Origin: a virus
Virus record (IMG/VR): IMGVR_UViG_3300025896_000134
Location: 1 to 30,200 of that record
DNA length: 30,200 nt
Reading direction: 5' to 3' (one strand)
This document shows positions 992-30,200 of this stretch, piece after piece. The translations under genes were made by a program, and so were the position numbers. Within the stretch, counting starts at the first letter, position 1; each line of letters begins with the position of its first letter. The notes under the pieces were generated by a model. It searched no databases, was not told the DNA's origin, and worked only from the letters and a program-made list of their open reading frames with translations.

Positions 992-3178
992 CTAGATCAG
1001 ATCGGGCAGGTGGGGATTGGGGTCATCATCGGTGTCTTGTTCTTGTTCCTCTTGGTGGTCCTGGTGCACTGCGCCGACTACGTCGGACGCACCGCGCCAC
1101 TTGGACTCGCTGCTAGGTGCGCCACCCTGTGCCGCTACCGCGCCAGTCTGCGATCCCGTGTCTCCCTTAGGTGCGCCAACCGCGCCACTCGGAACTGCTA
1201 CCGCGCCACCCTTTTGCTGGCGCGGTACCGCGCCACCCTCGATTTCACCGCGCCGGCGCGGTTGAGTCTCAACAATGTCGTCGAGGATGGACCGCTCATC
1301 GGCTGAGTTTTTGAGCATCTTGAGAGCCGCACTGACCAGCCGTCGAGACAGCGTTCCTGCCATTACGGCAGCCGCATGGTTCTGTGAATCATCGGCAGTG
1401 ATGCCGGCAGCTTTGAGCAGCGCCATGTTCTGAGCAGTGCCGTCGGGGAAGATGGCAGCGTCCCTGTCGATCTGATAGTCGTAGCCAACGTCGGTGCTGA
1501 CTCGCTGGATCTTCACCTCTTGGGGCACCCATGCGATGCGTGAGTGTGTGCGCTCGATCTTGACGCCGTCGCCGTCTTTGGTTTGTGTTCGGGTGAGCCG
1601 CCAGACCAGATCCACGTCGTCGTTCTTGGCTGATGATCCTCGCTGGCCTTTGCTGGTGTCTTTGCCTGAGTGATCGGTGCGCAGATAGGTGACTCCCTTG
1701 GCCTTCAGGGCAAGCCCTGTGTGGCGATAGAAGGCGCGCACGGTGTCTGCTGAGTCTTCGTCACCTTCCACGGCTCGGCCGAATGTGTCGATGATTGCGA
1801 GCTGCGCTCCTGTCTTGTCGACGAGGCCCAAGATGGCGTTGGCACCCTCTCGAGTGTCCAGTGGTGGCAACGAAGGTAGCAACGCATAGTGGAGCCGTGA
1901 GAGGTCGTCGTCGGGGCCATAGCCAAGTTCGCCGAGTCGCTCGAGTAGATCGGCTTCGGTCATCTCATAGTCGAGGTAGAGAACGTCGACTTGCTCGGCT
2001 CGGCGCTGGCCAAGCACACGCCGACCAGTGGCCACTGCTGCTGCCACTGCCAGCACGATGGTCGACTTGCCAGCCTTGGCCGGCGCATAGAGGGCGATTG
2101 CTCTGCCCTTCGGGATGACTGGATAGGCCAGCCATTCTTCGTCGGCGTGGTCTTGGTGCCAGAACTTCTGCCAGTCGACCAGGTGCGCGAGCTCTACTCG
2201 GTCGGTCGGTGTCAAGGTCACTTCTGACATACCGTCGTGCGTTATGTCTGCGACGCTGATGGCGTCGAGCAGGGCGTTGACTGGTGCCATGTCGAGCTCA
2301 TAGAGACGTGATGCAGCTGCACTCCGATCGCCCTGGTGATGGCGACAGGCGTAGTAGCCGAAGCGTGAGTAGCTGCCCTCGGGTAACCAGGCGATCGAGC
2401 TTGAGAACACTGTCATCTGACCGCCGCCGCCGTGGCCGACTGTGGCACTGATGCCGTCGCGCTCATCCTTACCGGGCCGAACCCATCGCTGCTCGCCGTC
2501 AGCCATTGTCTGTGCCAGCGTCCAGCCATCGCTGCTGAGCAGCTGCGCCCAAGTGGTCTGATGGTTGTATCTCGCAGCGACTGAGTCTGACTCGCCGCTC
2601 GAGGTTGAGACTGGCGTTGGTGTCGGCTCAGCGCGCGCCGTCAGCAGTTCGATCAGCCACTTGGGTGCTGCTGCGATCTCGCCGATCTCGCCGCCTTCCC
2701 ACTCATAGGGTCGCCCGTTCGGGTGAATCGTTGGCGGTGCCACGCACTGGCCACCTTCGCCACGAATGTCGAGACCAGGGCCGAGAGCCGTCGCTGCGTT
2801 GTTTCTGATGGTGACGCCAGCCGGCATGAGGAAGTAGCGATGCTGGCCACCCGAGCCAGTCAGCACCGTGGCCGTGTCGGGCAGTGGGCCGTGTTGCTGC
2901 TCGAGGTCGGCGAGGGTTTCGTCGCCTGCCTTGTCGCCGCTCACGTCGATGTCAAGGGCGAAGATTGTGCCGCCAGTGGCGATGCCGACGCCGTGATCTG
3001 AATAGAGACCAGTGAACCAGTTCTCAATCGTTGGCTCGTCGGTGGTGGCATGGTTCTGCCAGCCAGCCATCGGTGGCCGCTTCTCCCCTGGCTTGATCGG
3101 CAGGACCGGCAGACCGTGCTCGGCATAGTTAAGTGCGTGGGCCAGCACGTTGTGGTCGTATGACTCCAGGGCGGTCAC
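992..3178 (-). CDS. prim-pol / AAA ATPase replication protein
   Basis: A 728-residue fusion of a primase-polymerase domain and a RecA-like ATPase, the likely replication initiator and helicase-primase. The prim-pol domain (about 1-185) shows the catalytic ALDID (Asp76, Asp78), SGGQHRYF (109-116) and LDIRGEGG (136-143). The ATPase has Walker A APAKAGKST (about 365-373), Walker B LAIID (about 460-464) and the RepA-like TDHSGKDTSKGQRGSSAK element (about 501-518). The start is GTG at 3178, overlapping the upstream stop as GTGA; the longer upstream extension is an out-of-place reading of the previous gene. The C-terminal segment (about 640-715) is low-complexity GAV/GAP-rich and is encoded by the DNA repeat cluster described separately. 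The domain architecture is well known in actinophages and integrative elements. Confidence 0.93.
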   Translation of the reverse strand: MTALESYDHNVLAHALNYAEHGLPVLPIKPGEKRPPMAGWQNHATTDEPTIENWFTGLYSDHGVGIATGGTIFALDIDVSGDKAGDETLADLEQQHGPLPDTATVLTGSGGQHRYFLMPAGVTIRNNAATALGPGLDIRGEGGQCVAPPTIHPNGRPYEWEGGEIGEIAAAPKWLIELLTARAEPTPTPVSTSSGESDSVAARYNHQTTWAQLLSSDGWTLAQTMADGEQRWVRPGKDERDGISATVGHGGGGQMTVFSSSIAWLPEGSYSRFGYYACRHHQGDRSAAASRLYELDMAPVNALLDAISVADITHDGMSEVTLTPTDRVELAHLVDWQKFWHQDHADEEWLAYPVIPKGRAIALYAPAKAGKSTIVLAVAAAVATGRRVLGQRRAEQVDVLYLDYEMTEADLLERLGELGYGPDDDLSRLHYALLPSLPPLDTREGANAILGLVDKTGAQLAIIDTFGRAVEGDEDSADTVRAFYRHTGLALKAKGVTYLRTDHSGKDTSKGQRGSSAKNDDVDLVWRLTRTQTKDGDGVKIERTHSRIAWVPQEVKIQRVSTDVGYDYQIDRDAAIFPDGTAQNMALLKAAGITADDSQNHAAAVMAGTLSRRLVSAALKMLKNSADERSILDDIVETQPRRRGEIEGGAVPRQQKGGAVAVPSGAVGAPKGDTGSQTGAVAAQGGAPSSESKWRGASDVVGAVHQDHQEEQEQDTDDDPNPHLPDLI
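1091..1262. repeat. cluster of ACCGCGCC repeats, candidate replication origin
   Basis: Eight copies of an 8-mer within 172 bp. ACCGCGCC occurs at 1091, 1137, 1179, 1200, 1227 and 1247, and inverted copies GGCGCGGT at 1219 and 1255. The 1218-1235 block is an 18-bp perfect palindrome and 1247-1262 a 16-bp perfect palindrome. Two copies of TAGGTGCGCCA (1114-1124 and 1168-1178) are interspersed. The repeats sit in the 3' part of the replication-protein gene and are read in more than one codon frame, which argues for DNA-level function. In lambda, iterons for protein O lie inside the O gene. No AT-rich unwinding element is obvious next to the cluster. Confidence 0.5.
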
Positions 3179-3471
3179 GCCACTTCTCTCACGAGTTCGT
3201 CGAGTTGCTTGATGACCTTTTTGAACGCTTTGCGAACCTTGAGTTGGTCTCGCTGCATGTCGATGAGGATCTCCCAATCGTTCTTGGAAGTCATGCGGTC
3301 GACCATGACCTCGAGCGCGCGATTGCGTTCCTCTAAGACGATGACCTGCGCCTGCAGCTCGTAGATGGCCTCAAGTGCTCTGCCGGCGTCAAGCACCATG
3401 TCTTCGGCGTGTGGCCAGAAGCGCTGCAGCTTCAGCCCGTCGATTGCCTGTTCGATCTCTTCGTTTGTCAT
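3175..3471 (-). CDS. coiled-coil protein of unknown function
   Basis: A 98-residue charged helical protein. A likely coiled coil runs from about residue 30 to 60 (AIYELQAQVIVLEERNRALEV), and the C-terminus is Lys/Glu-rich. There is no Cys motif, signal or membrane segment. The start overlaps the upstream stop as ATGA, and its own stop overlaps the GTG of the replication gene, so translation is probably coupled across all three genes. It might be an accessory factor of the replication protein, but that rests on position only. Confidence 0.8.
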   Translation of the reverse strand: MTNEEIEQAIDGLKLQRFWPHAEDMVLDAGRALEAIYELQAQVIVLEERNRALEVMVDRMTSKNDWEILIDMQRDQLKVRKAFKKVIKQLDELVREVA

Positions 3472-4419: not shown

Positions 4420-4934
4420 CACAGCCACCCGAACTTTCGTGAGCAGCCAGGCCAAGCGCGCCAGCCTGAGTTCGCCAGGACTCGTTCGGCAATGTCGATC
4501 TGCTGTTCACGACTAGCGAGGTAGGCGTCGGGGGCGTACTCGAGGCCGCCGTTGCTGCGCCATGTGCCGATGTGGAACATGAGGCCGCCACTGAAGCCTC
4601 CGCTGACTGGTGGATAGTCCCAGCGGCTGCTGCTTTCGCATTGTGCGAGTTGATCCCAGCGACTGGCGTCGCTCGCCGGTGGCGGCGTCGGTGTGTGACG
4701 GTATTGCGGTACAGCAGTCGTCGTGGTGGTGAGGGTGGTGAGCAGCTCGGCGATCGCTGCGTGGGCGTCGATCGTGTTGTCATAGCCAAGAGACACAACT
4801 ATCTCTGGTGCTGGTTGTGTTTCTTGTGCTGCTGCGGGGATCGAGCAGCGCCCGAGTGCTGCGCCGGCGGCGAGCAGGGCGATCACTGCGATGCATCCTG
4901 CTGCAATTCTTCGTAAGTCAATGCCGTCATCCAT
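4419..4934 (-). CDS. Rpf-like transglycosylase, membrane-anchored or secreted
   Basis: A 171-residue protein with an N-terminal hydrophobic segment (about residues 9-28, IAAGCIAVIALLAAGAALG) acting as a signal peptide or anchor, a Thr/Pro-rich linker, and a C-terminal resuscitation-promoting-factor (transglycosylase-like) domain from about residue 93. Diagnostic features are WDQLAQCES with the predicted catalytic Glu, GGLMFHIGTW, APDAYLASREQQIDIAERVL and the closing AWPGCS. Rpf domains cleave peptidoglycan glycan strands in actinobacteria. The start at 4934 has GAGGA about eight bases upstream. It lies in the early operon, far from the CHAP endolysin and holin, so it may act on the wall during infection or lysogeny instead of at lysis, though a late role cannot be excluded. 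Confidence 0.88.
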   Translation of the reverse strand: MDDGIDLRRIAAGCIAVIALLAAGAALGRCSIPAAAQETQPAPEIVVSLGYDNTIDAHAAIAELLTTLTTTTTAVPQYRHTPTPPPASDASRWDQLAQCESSSRWDYPPVSGGFSGGLMFHIGTWRSNGGLEYAPDAYLASREQQIDIAERVLANSGWRAWPGCSRKFGWL

Positions 4935-5062
4935 GTCTGTGTTCCTCGGTTCTTTCGGGTGCACTCAGCGCAAAGCACTGCGAGCACGGCTAGGGGTGTC
5001 GAGTAATCGGTGCCACATTTCGGGCACCGCCAGTTGGTCAGTGAGTAAGGGCGTGATGCCAT
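4883..5062 (-). CDS. small zinc-ribbon protein overlapping its neighbours
   Basis: A 59-residue protein with two Cys pairs, CPKC and CAEC, about 15 residues apart: a typical zinc ribbon. The start ATG at 5062 lies inside the 3' end of the preceding gene (25-bp overlap), and the 3' end overlaps the Rpf-like gene by 52 bp in another frame. No good Shine-Dalgarno is visible, so translation is probably coupled. The Cys spacing and lack of another explanation for this stretch support it. It ends in YEELQQDASQ. Function unknown. Confidence 0.65.
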   Translation of the reverse strand: MASRPYSLTNWRCPKCGTDYSTPLAVLAVLCAECTRKNRGTQTWMTALTYEELQQDASQ

Positions 5063-5274
5063 GCGTTGGTGAGTTCGTTGATTGCGTCTCGCCGTTTCGG
5101 TTCCTCAGCGGCGATGTGGGCGAGGTAGTCAGCCATGCGCTGGCCAGTGCGTCCGATGCGTGCCAAGTCGCCGACCATCTCGATCAACTTGCGCTCGTTG
5201 CGGTCCTTGTCGGCAGCGAGCATGCGGTCCATGTCGGCGAGCATGCGCGTGTAGGGGTCTTCGCCGTGTCGCAT
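5038..5274 (-). CDS. small helical protein of unknown function
   Basis: A 78-residue, strongly charged, all-helical protein (MRHGEDPYTRMLADMDRMLA...). The start overlaps the stop of the gene before it as TGATG, supporting this ATG over the longer upstream frame, which reads as shadow sequence. No motif recognised. Confidence 0.7.
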   Translation of the reverse strand: MRHGEDPYTRMLADMDRMLAADKDRNERKLIEMVGDLARIGRTGQRMADYLAHIAAEEPKRRDAINELTNAWHHALTH

Positions 5275-6081: not shown

Positions 6082-7677
6082 CTACGCAGCAATCGCTGCG
6101 TCGATGTCGCCTGTGATGCGCACGCCTTCGCTCTCCCACATGGGGATGAGTGAGCCGGCGTTGAGTGCGCGGGCGAGGTGTCCGAGGCGTGTTGCCTCGT
6201 CAATCGTGAGCGTGCCGATGGCATCGCCGAGGTCGTGTCCTGGTTGCACCTCTTCGCCGATGGCGAGTGAGATCAACGCTCGAGCAAGGTCGTCGTCGGT
6301 GTGATCGGCGAACGCAATGAGCGAGCCAGTGATGACGAAGCGACGCTGGGTTTTCTTGCCGCCGGGGCCGGTCATGTTGACGGAACGATTCGCAGCGCGC
6401 GCTGCATCCATCATCGCTCCGAGCCAGATGCGCCCTTCGACGGTGAGCTTGCGTGCGTGTCGATTGACGATTTGAGTCTCCAGCGTGCCGACTTCGGCAC
6501 CTTCGTCGGGTGCACCACGTCGCTGTGGTGCAGCCTCGCGACGCTCAACAAGCACTTCGCCTGGCTTCGGATCGGGAAACGCTGCGCCGACCTGTGTCTC
6601 AATCATTGACACTGCCTGCTCGATTGGATCGGCGAGGTGGTTGGCGATTGGCTTGCCACTGCCGAGCGTGGGCACGCCTTCGGGCCATGAGTTGCGAATG
6701 AGATCTGAGTGGCCAGCGTCGATGAGTGGCTTGAGGCGGCTGATCATCCATGCCCGCCATGCGTCGTCGACGTTGCCGTCAGCAGCGCTAAGGATCTTCT
6801 CGGCTGCTGCGATCTGATTGGTGCGTGTCACCACGTCGAGCTCGACGGTGATCGGCGAAAGCACCTTTGCTTTGCGCATCTGTCGCACAGCGATGGCGAG
6901 CTCGAGGGCTTCAGCACCCGTAGCGAGGTCTAGCCAGTGGAGATCGCAGACGCCGCTGCCTGGCTGCACATGAATGATGACGCCGTAGAGCTTTGACACT
7001 TCAGGCATTGGCTCTCGAGTGTCTTCGCTGCCATCGGCTGCTGCGCCCTGGTTGTAGAGAGCGTCCGCTTGGGCATAGATAGAGAGTTGGATTGAGAAGG
7101 CCAAGGCTCCGAGTAGCGATGAGCCGGTCTTGTAATCAGCGACGAAGCGCTGACCGGTTTCGTCTTCGACAAGCAGATCGAACGTGCCGGCGATCTGGTG
7201 ACGATCATGCACGATCATGCGTTCTGAGTAGCCGTCCACAACGCGCAAGCGGGCGGACGCCAACGCATTGTGGACGGCTTGAATGTCGCCGCCATAGGGG
7301 TCTGGCGCGACAAAGGTTGGATCAATGAACGATCGCTCGAGCATTCCGTGCACAGCAGTGCCGAGGTCACGACGTACCGTCGCTCCCCCTTGCTCGGCTG
7401 CTCGTTCGCAGATCCCGTCGAGGGCTTTCTTGTCGGTGTCGGGAGTTGTCGACACCAGAGCGACAAGGTCGGGACGTTGTGCAAGACCGATCGCAACCAT
7501 GCGCTTGCCCCAGCCGAGCAGACCGCCAGAGTCTTCGATGCCTTTGGCGATCGTCGTCGCCCGGGTGTACCCGATCGCCTTCGCACCGCCTTCGGGCAGC
7601 ACTAGGTAGCGCCCCCAGCGGTCACGCCGAACAGGTTGCTGCACTAGATCGTCGATGATGCTCGTGAGTTGTTTCAT
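6082..7677 (-). CDS. RecB/Cas4-like PD-(D/E)XK exonuclease
   Basis: A 531-residue protein whose first half carries a RecB-family nuclease domain. Motifs in order are LGTAVHGMLE with His110, GTFDLLVED with Asp167, VADYKTG (Asp181, Lys183), and QLSIYAQ (Gln197, Tyr201). The C-terminal half has no recognised motif and may bind a partner such as the adjacent OB-fold-like protein. The start at 7677 is chosen because AAGGGG lies nine bases upstream; an ATG at 7686 sits directly on that motif. Such nucleases resect DNA ends for phage recombination. It follows WhiB in the same operon. Confidence 0.88.
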   Translation of the reverse strand: MKQLTSIIDDLVQQPVRRDRWGRYLVLPEGGAKAIGYTRATTIAKGIEDSGGLLGWGKRMVAIGLAQRPDLVALVSTTPDTDKKALDGICERAAEQGGATVRRDLGTAVHGMLERSFIDPTFVAPDPYGGDIQAVHNALASARLRVVDGYSERMIVHDRHQIAGTFDLLVEDETGQRFVADYKTGSSLLGALAFSIQLSIYAQADALYNQGAAADGSEDTREPMPEVSKLYGVIIHVQPGSGVCDLHWLDLATGAEALELAIAVRQMRKAKVLSPITVELDVVTRTNQIAAAEKILSAADGNVDDAWRAWMISRLKPLIDAGHSDLIRNSWPEGVPTLGSGKPIANHLADPIEQAVSMIETQVGAAFPDPKPGEVLVERREAAPQRRGAPDEGAEVGTLETQIVNRHARKLTVEGRIWLGAMMDAARAANRSVNMTGPGGKKTQRRFVITGSLIAFADHTDDDLARALISLAIGEEVQPGHDLGDAIGTLTIDEATRLGHLARALNAGSLIPMWESEGVRITGDIDAAIAA

Positions 7678-11027: not shown

Positions 11028-11067
11028 GGTACACATTACGGTACACATTCTCGGCCTAATGTGTACC
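11028..11067. repeat. integrase arm-type sites, int side of attP
   Basis: GGTACACAT at 11028-11036 and 11040-11048 (12-bp period) and inverted at 11059-11067. The second and third copies form 10-bp perfect inverted arms (11040-11049, 11058-11067). They lie in the int upstream region, so integrase binding could also repress int. Confidence 0.75.
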
Positions 11068-11098
11068 GATTCGGGCCTGTTCGGGCCTTCGCCGAGAA

Positions 11099-11127
11099 TT
11101 GTGGACACGATGCGAAACTGTCCACAA
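11099..11127. repeat. 9-bp inverted repeat near attP
   Basis: TTGTGGACA (11099-11107) and TGTCCACAA (11119-11127) separated by 11 bp, between the arm sites and the terminator. A possible accessory protein site or small hairpin. Confidence 0.4.
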
Positions 11128-11134
11128 AACCAAT

Positions 11135-11162
11135 AAAAACCCCACATTTCTGCGGGGTTTTG
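11135..11162 (-). terminator. intrinsic terminator after the tRNA 3' half
   Basis: On the minus strand AAAACCCC...GGGGTTTTT followed by ATTGG. It follows the tRNA 3' end by a few bases, as expected if copied with the host tRNA locus, and would stop late transcription before int. The arms are symmetric enough to act in both directions. Confidence 0.8.
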
Positions 11163-11166
11163 CTTG

Positions 11167-11218
11167 TGCCCGGAGTGGGATTTGAACCCACAAGAAGTTG
11201 CCTTCCGGGGGGTTTAAG
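11167..11218 (-). other. attP: attP core: 3' half of tRNA-Leu(UAA)
   Basis: Minus strand: anticodon loop CTTAAAC (anticodon TAA), CCCCC stem strand, a long variable arm GAAG-GCAA-CTTC, T-arm GTGGG-TTCAAAT-CCCAC, acceptor strand TCCGGGC and discriminator A, without CCA. The matching 5' half (GCCCGGA acceptor, D-arm, GGGGG stem strand) is absent upstream. A tRNA 3' half next to an integrase is the usual attP core; insertion would restore a complete host tRNA. Confidence 0.85.
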
Positions 11219-11261
11219 CGTCCCATGCAGTTGCAAGGGGTGTATGGCATCGCGGGCCACT

Positions 11262-11282
11262 GGTACACATAGCGGTACACAT
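11262..11282. repeat. integrase arm-type sites, distal side of attP
   Basis: GGTACACAT at 11262-11270 and 11274-11282, with the same 12-bp period as the int-side pair. With the core between them this gives the P-core-P' layout of tyrosine-integrase att sites. Confidence 0.75.
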
Positions 11283-24392: not shown

Positions 24393-25601
24393 TCAGGACG
24401 CGCCACCCTTGTAAAACTTCACTGCGTTGGAATCGACGACCGCGCCGTCTCCACGCCATGTGACGCGGAAGGTGATGAGGTCATTGACGAAGCCGACGCT
24501 GTCATCGCGTGCGAAGTCGATGCCACGGACCTGGCGGACGTAGTACGCCGATGCCATGTCGCCGAAGATGACCGACTTTGCGCCAGTTGCCGTAGCGACG
24601 ACGTCTGGGTTTTCCAGAACGGCGTAGCCGAGCAGCTGATCAGGGGCATTGTCTTGGAACGACGGCTGCCAGATGTAGCTTCCGTTGCCGTCCTTGATCT
24701 TGCGAACTGCAGCGACGGTGCTTGCGTTCATTTGGAACGAAGCGCCACGACGGCGGTAAGGAGATCCAACCGAGTAGACGAGGTCTACAAGGTTCTCGTA
24801 GGTCGGAACGCCAGCGACGCCAGTGCCACCGGTGACGGCTGAGCCGGCTCCGTTGACGATGCCGTTGGGCTGTGTGGTTCCGGTGCCGACGGTGAGGCCA
24901 GCGTTGACCGCTGTGCCCATGCCGACTGCAGCCTGGCGGGCGACGAAGTCGAGCAAGTTGATGCCTGAATCTTCGACAACCTCACGGCTGAGCTGGAACG
25001 TGGCGGCGTACTTGAATGCACCAAGGGTGACGAACGCTGCGAAGGTCGGGTCAGATTCCGTGATCGCTGTGCCTTCACCGATGATTGCTGGGGCGGTGTA
25101 GGTGGCGGTGCGTGGGATCTGAAGGGACTCGCCACTGTTCGTGGTGAGCATCGTGATGACGTTGCCGTCAAGCATCGGGCCTTGAATGACGAGCTGCTCA
25201 ACGAGCTGGTCGTAGAACGAGGTCGGCACTGGTGCGCCGGTGCTGGACTTGGTGACATCACGCTTGTCGAACGAGAACGAACGACGCTCGCCAAGGGCGA
25301 TTTCACGAATGATGTCGCTGTCGTTCTTCTCGGCAGGGGCAGCGGTGCGAACACCGAAGTCAGCCGGGACGCCGAGAGCGGCGCGTGATTCGTCGATTGC
25401 ACGCTCGCGTGCTTCGATGTCGATGATGTTCTTGCGACGGGCATCGAGTGCATCGATGTCGTCGTTCATGCGGGTGAACTGTTCGGCTTCTTCACCGGAC
25501 AGGTCGCGGTTCTCGGACGCTGCGTGATCGAGAAGAGACTTAGCTTCTTCCCAGGTACGCGCGCGCTGTTCCGAGAGGCGAGTGACGAGTTCGTCAGTCA
25601 T
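24393..25601 (-). CDS. major capsid protein (HK97 fold)
   Basis: A 402-residue HK97-type capsid protein. An N-terminal coiled coil (about 1-75, LSGEEAEQFTRMNDDIDALDARRKNI) is the delta/scaffold domain, normally removed by the protease encoded two positions earlier. The shell part begins around residue 100 and includes VPTSFYDQLVEQLV, SGESLQIPRTATYTAPAIIGEGTAI, and the P-loop region QNGIVNGAG-like TTQPNGIVNGAG. AGGAGG-like GGAGG five bases before the ATG predicts strong translation. Confidence 0.95.
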   Translation of the reverse strand: MTDELVTRLSEQRARTWEEAKSLLDHAASENRDLSGEEAEQFTRMNDDIDALDARRKNIIDIEARERAIDESRAALGVPADFGVRTAAPAEKNDSDIIREIALGERRSFSFDKRDVTKSSTGAPVPTSFYDQLVEQLVIQGPMLDGNVITMLTTNSGESLQIPRTATYTAPAIIGEGTAITESDPTFAAFVTLGAFKYAATFQLSREVVEDSGINLLDFVARQAAVGMGTAVNAGLTVGTGTTQPNGIVNGAGSAVTGGTGVAGVPTYENLVDLVYSVGSPYRRRGASFQMNASTVAAVRKIKDGNGSYIWQPSFQDNAPDQLLGYAVLENPDVVATATGAKSVIFGDMASAYYVRQVRGIDFARDDSVGFVNDLITFRVTWRGDGAVVDSNAVKFYKGGAS

Positions 25602-29419: not shown

Positions 29420-29980
29420 TCAGATCGGCAGCGAAGCGATCCACTCATTGAGATCGGCGAACGCTGTCGCACATTTGCGCCAGCGTTGAGAGGTGACGGT
29501 GATGTAGCGGCCGCTGCCGTAGACCTCGACGCCGCCGGCCTTGCGACCTTTGTCGATGTCGGCAAGTCCCCACACATGCAAGCCATCGCCGCTCGGCGAA
29601 ACTTCCATGTAGGTGTCGGGCATGCCGGCGATGATGTCTTGCGCCCAGGGCAGAAGTCGACCACGACCGTCAAGGCAGTGATCGATGTCAACACACGCGA
29701 TGCGGTCGGCGTTAGTGAGAACAAAGCCGACGCCAGCGCCAACCGTTGAGGATGTTGCAGTGTGAAAGTCGCACCAGGTCGAAGGGTTTGTCGAGCTGGC
29801 GTTGTCACCATTTATGGTGAGCGGCACCTTCGTCGGCGAGTAGCGCACCCATCGATCGATGAGGCGCAGCTGCTCGGCTGGGAGCGCTCGATGCGCAGCG
29901 ACTCGGCAGCGGCTTGAGCAGTAGCGAGTGTCGCCACGACGGATGACAGGCAACGAGCTCAAGCAGTGGGCGCAGGTCAT
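29420..29980 (-). CDS. stand-alone prim-pol-like protein with zinc finger
   Basis: A 186-residue protein. The N-terminus is a zinc finger (CAHC at 3-6, CSSRC at 21-25), then a small primase-polymerase-like domain: RIACVDIDHCLDGRG with Asp98 and Asp100, EVSPSGDGLHVWGL (about 126-139) and GVEVYGSGRYITVT. These match the prim-pol catalytic pattern (DxD, SGxGxH, later basic loop). No ATPase domain. The start at 29980 is the first ATG before the Cys motif, next to a likely -10 box; upstream codons look non-coding. It is placed just before TerS. Confidence 0.8.
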   Translation of the reverse strand: MTCAHCLSSLPVIRRGDTRYCSSRCRVAAHRALPAEQLRLIDRWVRYSPTKVPLTINGDNASSTNPSTWCDFHTATSSTVGAGVGFVLTNADRIACVDIDHCLDGRGRLLPWAQDIIAGMPDTYMEVSPSGDGLHVWGLADIDKGRKAGGVEVYGSGRYITVTSQRWRKCATAFADLNEWIASLPI

Positions 29981-29986
29981 GGGCGA

Positions 29987-29992
29987 AGTGTA
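29987..29992 (-). promoter_or_regulatory. candidate late promoter -10, leaderless
   Basis: TACACT on the minus strand, six bases before the ATG at 29980 and preceded by a tandem CCGTTAC. It fits the actinobacterial TAnnnT -10, and the expected start of transcription would be the ATG itself. No good -35 is visible. Confidence 0.45.
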
Positions 29993-30042
29993 GCCCGTAA
30001 CGGGTAACGGCTGCACGCTATTGACTTGGCACTTTGCGAGCG

Positions 30043-30061
30043 TTCTGCGATTCTCGCAGAA
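30043..30061. repeat. 8-bp inverted repeat upstream of packaging genes
   Basis: TTCTGCGA-TTC-TCGCAGAA perfect hairpin. The 29981-30200 stretch holds no gene; it may contain the terminase recognition region or late regulatory sites, and this hairpin is the clearest structure in it. Confidence 0.5.
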
Positions 30062-30200
30062 ACTCCGCACAGGTTGGCGCAGGACGATCGACCAGTTCTT
30101 GAGACAATTCGCAGCTCAAACTGTTAGCACTGAGGCGCTCCTGAGCGCTTCTAGGCTGCTCTCAAAGTCCCCCGCATTGCTCGTGGGAGGGATGGGCTGG

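Follow-up and report, generated by a model that had tools for sequence, protein, structure and literature searches.

A candidate replication origin of iterons and a hairpin within the 3' end of a phage Prim-Pol/AAA_25 replicase gene

The segment at positions 1064–1262 of the window (the whole 30.2-kb stretch of viral DNA that was analysed) is probably the replication origin of the phage. Judged from sequence, this origin would be self-encoded, composed of iterons and a hairpin, and recognised by the C-terminus of the replicase in whose gene it lies. Self-encoded iteron origins are already known as a kind, and the origins of Prim-Pol phages are, to our knowledge, mostly unmapped. A preliminary description of the window had proposed a candidate origin at this place, and the proposal is supported: the repeated word is kept in homologues, and distant relatives keep the position of the array with other words.

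Results

The replicase gene and its word array

The window, an IMG/VR contig, carries packaging and tail genes of the HK97 type, an integrase gene and, near its left end, a large replicase gene on the minus strand (Table 1). The replicase ORF opens at 3277, similarity to homologues begins at residue 34 of this long frame, and the gene presumably starts at the GTG at 3178. The first Foldseek match of the ATPase domain was the RSF1010 RepA helicase (1nlf, E 7e-10); the matches to 1nlf, 1g8y and 1olo had TM scores (target) of 0.66–0.68, indicating a RepA-like hexameric-helicase fold. The C-terminal helical domain gave neither a confident PDB match with Foldseek nor a Pfam match above threshold, so that the label 'DNA-binding' is one that we infer. 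Residues 629–728, the array-coded part and what follows, are predicted by AlphaFold to be unstructured. An identity-based homology search of phages and plasmids found no full-length relative. A second, stand-alone Prim-Pol-like protein is encoded at 29420–30070 (minus strand), adjoining the terminase.

Eight exact copies of ACCGCGCC/GGCGCGGT lie within 1091–1262, near the 3' end of the replicase gene, and one further copy occurs in the whole 30.2 kb (at 24439). The count expected by chance over the whole window is 2.0, with a maximum of 6 in 100 shuffles. The preliminary description had correctly placed eight copies in 172 bp inside a replication-protein gene, and the perfect palindromes of 18 and 16 bp and the spacings of 42, 21 and 20 bp that it listed were found as well. 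That most copies encode GAV was overstated: four of the eight read GAV, two read WRG or RRG, and two reverse copies read PR(Q/R). The companion statement, that several frames carry the same word, holds, with three readings in use. At 1170–1177 the window reads GGCGCACC where several homologues carry one more iteron, which indicates turnover of iteron copies within the clade. Iteron-type origins are recognised by a cluster of short repeats in or next to the initiator gene, and such a cluster is present here.

Table 1. Features of the replicase gene and the candidate origin in the window
Feature	Position	Strand	Remarks
Replicase gene	992..3178	-	Prim-Pol + AAA_25 ATPase + C-terminal three-helix domain + array-coded disordered tail
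Prim-Pol domain (N-terminal)	about 2657-3136	-	Pfam PF09250, E 2e-44
AAA_25 ATPase domain	about 1655-2149	-	Pfam PF13481, E 7e-27
C-terminal small helical domain, proposed iteron-binding	about 1301-1441	-	Three helices predicted; covariation with word
Array-coded disordered tail of replicase	992-1294	-	AlphaFold residues 629-728, pLDDT < 50
Terminal hairpin CGCGGTGCGnCCGACGTAGTCGGCGCAGTGCA (n = variable bulge base)	1064..1095	-	Proposed priming/unwinding hairpin, downstream array edge
Iteron ACCGCGCC	1091..1098	+	Last copy in gene orientation; adjoins hairpin; read WRG
Iteron ACCGCGCC	1137..1144	+	Exact copy
Iteron ACCGCGCC	1179..1186	+	Exact copy; extra copy beside it in several relatives
Iteron ACCGCGCC	1200..1207	+	Exact copy
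18-bp palindrome TGGCGCGGTACCGCGCCA	1218-1235		
Iteron, inverted	1219..1226	-	Left half of 18-bp palindrome
Iteron ACCGCGCC	1227..1234	+	Right half of 18-bp palindrome
16-bp palindrome ACCGCGCCGGCGCGGT	1247-1262		
Iteron	1247..1254	+	Left half of 16-bp palindrome; read PRRRG
Iteron, inverted	1255..1262	-	Right half of 16-bp palindrome

At the 5' end of the integrase gene (11029–11282), the window holds five copies of ATGTGTAC/GTACACAT (0.3 expected), which flank a stretch resembling a tRNA 3' end at about 11169–11230. From its sequence this region is probably attP with integrase arm-type sites.

Constraint at the DNA level

The word array is a DNA-level feature. When the protein was kept fixed and synonymous codons were drawn from the rest of the gene, at most six words were obtained in 200,000 draws, compared with the eight observed. 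Because this resampling never gives eight words, the array is not explained by the protein sequence, in line with the earlier argument that one word carried in several frames is hard to derive from protein repeats. When the codons of the array itself were permuted among positions with the same residue, eight words arose in only 6 of 200,000 cases. Codon conservation was compared in close homologues that retain the array (L004–L007, L011 and L068; 84–90% identical). Their synonymous-codon identity was 0.933 over the array versus 0.766 elsewhere (0.835 for the best other 75-residue window), and their amino-acid identity was lower over the array (0.867 versus 0.940 in the remaining gene). Within the array, synonymous-codon identity was 0.987 for codons that touch words and 0.906 for those that do not. 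The word codons are almost fixed while the encoded residues drift, which is the outcome that the origin reading had predicted for an alignment of homologues.

Two explanations without a binding-site array have to be weighed against these data. The tail could be a low-complexity GAV stretch expanded by slippage, that is, a protein-level repeat with no role for the DNA. Half of the copies do read GAV, and, among the matches listed, 99 of the 119 other viral loci in which GGCGCGGT clusters keep to a single strand and frame; however, three readings are in use here, the array-coded tail is predicted to be disordered, relatives have arrays outside coding sequence, and both the synonymous conservation and the resampling null contradict a protein repeat, which we regard as most improbable. 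Alternatively, the synonymous conservation could stem from a gene that overlaps on the opposite strand or from folding of the transcript, given that all nine close homologues checked have one antisense frame without stop codons over the array and that hairpins can form in the array region. Such a cause is very unlikely, as the constraint peaks in the word-touching codons, other clades have other words with the array sometimes outside the gene, and no T-run that would mark a transcript terminator was seen 3' of the hairpins inspected.

Arrays of other words in relatives

Alignment-based searches of viral and genomic contigs yielded 94 loci, with 76 genes that fell into 36 clusters. An array was counted when one 8-mer had at least five copies in a 700-bp region about the stop codon; for control, 926 windows of equal size were taken from other parts of the same loci. 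Arrays were present in 22 of the 36 clusters versus 9 of the 926 control windows; the other 14 clusters had no array of at least five copies in these 700 bp. Relatives at 33–60% identity carry arrays of other words in the same position, some of them past the stop codon. The arrangement recurs in many phages and also in some elements integrated into chromosomes. By lineage, the words are GGCGCGGT, GGGACGCG, CTGACGCA, CGTCGCGG, GGGAACC(A/G), GGGGACC, GGGAAACG and GCGTGCCG, with GGGGACAC in Mycobacterium and GGACAGGT in Tessaracoccus. In 22 loci, no more than about 100 nt separate the end of the C-terminal helical domain from the start of the array, irrespective of the position of the stop codon: the ORF is open through the array in the window, L146, L157 and L162, the array straddles the stop codon in L224 and L225, and it lies beyond it in L215, L228 and L012. 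Most arrays contain copies in both orientations, often with an inverted pair first. No comparable array was found in the stretches examined of Prim-Pol phages without the matching helicase half (Shagrat and Eileen) or of plasmid pSITFR-6c. The view that prim-pol/ATPase phages of actinobacteria rarely have a defined origin is reversed by this survey, since most relatives examined show a candidate by sequence.

The terminal hairpin

A stable hairpin with an A/T apex closes most arrays. Perfect hairpins with an A/T-rich centre were present in 20 of the 36 clusters versus 20 of 555 control windows; CGCGTCCCCCCCTATAGGGGGACGCG, GTGCGTCCTATTAAAAGGACGCAC and GGGGGTCTTATAAAGACCCCC are examples. The hairpin of the window, with the core GTGCGnCCGACGTAGTCGGCGCA, matches those of the relatives in position. 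Its calculated stability is −19.4 kcal/mol, which was equalled in none of 25 control windows, and the synonymous-codon identity over the hairpin is 0.96. The stem is invariant in eight homologues and the bulge and outer bases vary; as the stem never varies, there is no compensatory change to prove the pairing. In relatives, the apices of most hairpins carry CTA or TTA on either strand (CTATAG, CTTTAG, CTAAAG, CTTATAAAG), which may be a start signal for the primase.

Covariation of the word with the C-terminal domain

The relation between word and protein was analysed in 22 loci, with the array-coded residues left out. The more the C-terminal domains of two loci diverged, the more their words differed (r 0.47, and 0.48 given ATPase divergence); none of 10,000 permutations was as high, the permutations treating loci as exchangeable and not fully removing phylogeny. 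Word distance showed no correlation with ATPase divergence given the C-terminal domain (−0.17). A single pair illustrates the point: L144 and L151 differ at ~10% of ATPase positions, yet have different C-terminal domains and different words (TGACGCA and CGTCGCGG, respectively). These comparisons support a match between the repeat word and the replicase's own C-terminal domain, which is a candidate iteron-binding domain. The pairs of word and domain form a natural series from which changes in the DNA specificity of an initiator could be read.

One array with different N-terminal domains

The array accompanies AAA_25 whatever the N-terminus, and therefore the candidate origin seems tied to the helicase half of the protein. 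The N-terminal part is a Prim-Pol domain in the window, L221 and phage 16-3, a DnaB_N domain in gp21 of mu1/6 and in L216 (whose array has four copies), and of the DnaG type with zinc finger and TOPRIM in L219 (zinc finger only in L215); L224, L225, L228 and L012 have no recognised N-terminal domain.

Two of these loci belong to cultured phages. In Rhizobium phage 16-3 (L232), p101 combines Prim-Pol and AAA_25, and the non-coding gap after it holds 13 exact copies of GCGTGACA and the hairpin CCCCCACACTCCTTTAGGAGTGGGGG (6104–6470), a candidate origin of a classical temperate phage. In Streptomyces phage mu1/6 (L229), eight copies of ACCTGCCC and a hairpin lie inside the 3' end of gp21 (DnaB_N and AAA_25; 4920–5100), and this region is likewise a candidate origin. 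For mu1/6, BFK20, actinophages and phage 16-3, no earlier description was found in the incomplete body of open-access papers searched, in which few subscription journals are represented, and prior art elsewhere is possible. An AICE-like plasmid of Streptomyces longwoodensis (L234) has nine copies of CCGCTACC across the stop codon of a DUF3631 gene (6360–6525) and, as a separate array, five copies of GGGTGTCA between traB and the next gene (3280–3351).

Viral contigs were also scanned for clustered GGCGCGGT independently of this protein, which gave at least 119 usable loci. Among the matches listed, 99 of 119 loci used one strand and frame and 15 used three or more; three of these 15 belong to the window's family, and six others were checked. 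Four of the six (L018, L020, L060 and L114) have the array at the 3' end of a replicase gene, with similar hairpins. The multi-frame GGCGCGGT array of L035 (3649–3854, period 13) adjoins a tyrosine-recombinase-like ORF and not a replicase gene.

Whether these loci represent one portable and previously unrecognised origin module, shared, at a minimum, by phages and mobile elements of Actinomycetota and Pseudomonadota, we consider evenly balanced. Such a module would consist of the AAA_25 C-terminus, its cognate 8-bp words and an A/T-apex hairpin, with interchangeable domains for priming (Prim-Pol, DnaB_N, DnaG-type or none); one protein would do the work of RSF1010's three, and word specificity would evolve with the short C-terminal domain.

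Discussion

Proposed mechanism and alternative functions

In the proposed mechanism, the C-terminal helical domain would bind the 8-bp words, the inverted pair first and further copies next. Binding would load or assemble the RepA-like AAA_25 hexameric helicase, which would open the adjoining DNA and expose the terminal hairpin, and the Prim-Pol domain would lay the first primer at or near this hairpin. The replicase would thus be expected to bind the array, fire the origin and prime at the hairpin. The word-binding half of this scheme rests on the covariation described above, and the half that concerns unwinding and priming is one that we infer. A search for an A+T-rich unwinding element within the arrays and next to them was negative (mean A+T 0.36 within the arrays and 0.35–0.42 around them). 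GC skew, suggested earlier as a check, was uninformative, with no turning point at the array. These negative results, like the 14 clusters without an array and the unmatched C-terminal domain, count against the origin reading.

The main rival to an origin is a purely regulatory site, at which the replicase or a separate repressor would control replication or transcription (handcuffing, autorepression) or serve partition, with replication starting elsewhere. Arrays of binding sites of this kind also serve control or partition in plasmids. However, the array occupies the 3' part of the gene, a long way from the promoter, and is accompanied by a hairpin, its word and the C-terminal domain of the replicase vary together, and no further array of this size was found in the window except the integrase-type sites; a control site is on balance unlikely. 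Repeat arrays also mark sites of recombination or packaging (attachment sites, pac/cos). A separate candidate array, with a tRNA-like stretch, belongs to the integrase, the terminase is located at the opposite end of the record, and similar arrays are present 3' of replicase genes in a plasmid-like integrative element, which together leave next to no weight for this function.

If the segment is an origin, an array plus hairpin right after the helicase C-terminal domain becomes a rule that predicts origins in dozens of genomes; since these include the cultured phages mu1/6 and 16-3, the rule can be tested directly. The window would also be a clear example of overprinting, in which the sequence coding for a disordered protein tail doubles as a regulatory DNA element used by that very protein.

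Comparison with known origins

In phage lambda, the binding sites of the initiator O lie within its own gene, O is neither helicase nor primase, and the iterons adjoin an A+T-rich region in mid-gene. The lambda O arrangement invoked in the preliminary description is apt in that the sites lie inside the initiator's own gene; otherwise it is a loose analogue, since the protein of the window fuses helicase and primase, and its array falls within the part coding for a disordered C-terminal tail and is followed by a hairpin. The origins of PICIs, RSF1010 and pRN1 are closer analogues.

The Prim-Pol/RepAM replication genes of AICEs resemble the present system in pairing Prim-Pol with a helicase-like gene, and L234 has its array across the DUF3631 stop codon; the difference is that the genes are separate and the helicase belongs to another family. 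An AICE survey makes no mention of 'iteron' (PMC3218068).

PICI/SaPI origins lie immediately 3' of rep and have element-specific iterons (PMC6092414). They share with the window the location at the 3' side of the initiator gene and the element-specific words, but their initiator is another one, two iteron sets flank an A+T-rich region there, and the window has a terminal hairpin. As no A+T-rich element was found, the array is set apart from PICI and classic iteron origins. The Prim-Pol-type replicase orf904 of the Sulfolobus plasmid pRN1 needs a stem-loop 3' of its gene, and the authors of the pRN1 work remarked that some phages have similar stem-loops (PMC4234260). Common to pRN1 and the window are a Prim-Pol (PF09250) replicase, an origin at the 3' end of its gene and a stem-loop; pRN1 differs by an SF3 helicase, a stem-loop of about 100 nt and no iterons, whereas the window has an AAA_25/RecA fold, iterons and a short hairpin. 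With the pRN1 stem-loop and the PICI origins 3' of replicase genes, the location of the array is unsurprising.

In RSF1010 (IncQ), RepC binds the iterons, RepA unwinds and RepB' primes at the exposed ssi hairpins (PMC4234260). The window resembles its oriV in having a helicase domain of RepA fold, a primase domain of the AEP type, iterons and a hairpin that may be the counterpart of the ssi sites. The differences are that the three proteins RepA, RepB' and RepC correspond to one fused polypeptide, that the words are of 8 bp, that the origin lies inside or right after the replicase gene with one hairpin instead of two, and that the window has no A+T-rich stretch and a C-terminal domain without a match to RepC (Foldseek, Pfam). 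The words with the C-terminal domain, the RepA-like ATPase, the Prim-Pol domain and the hairpin fit the RSF1010 order of events and suggest a one-protein version of it. By analogy, the best reading is that the system of the window works like an RSF1010 oriV whose functions are fused into one protein.
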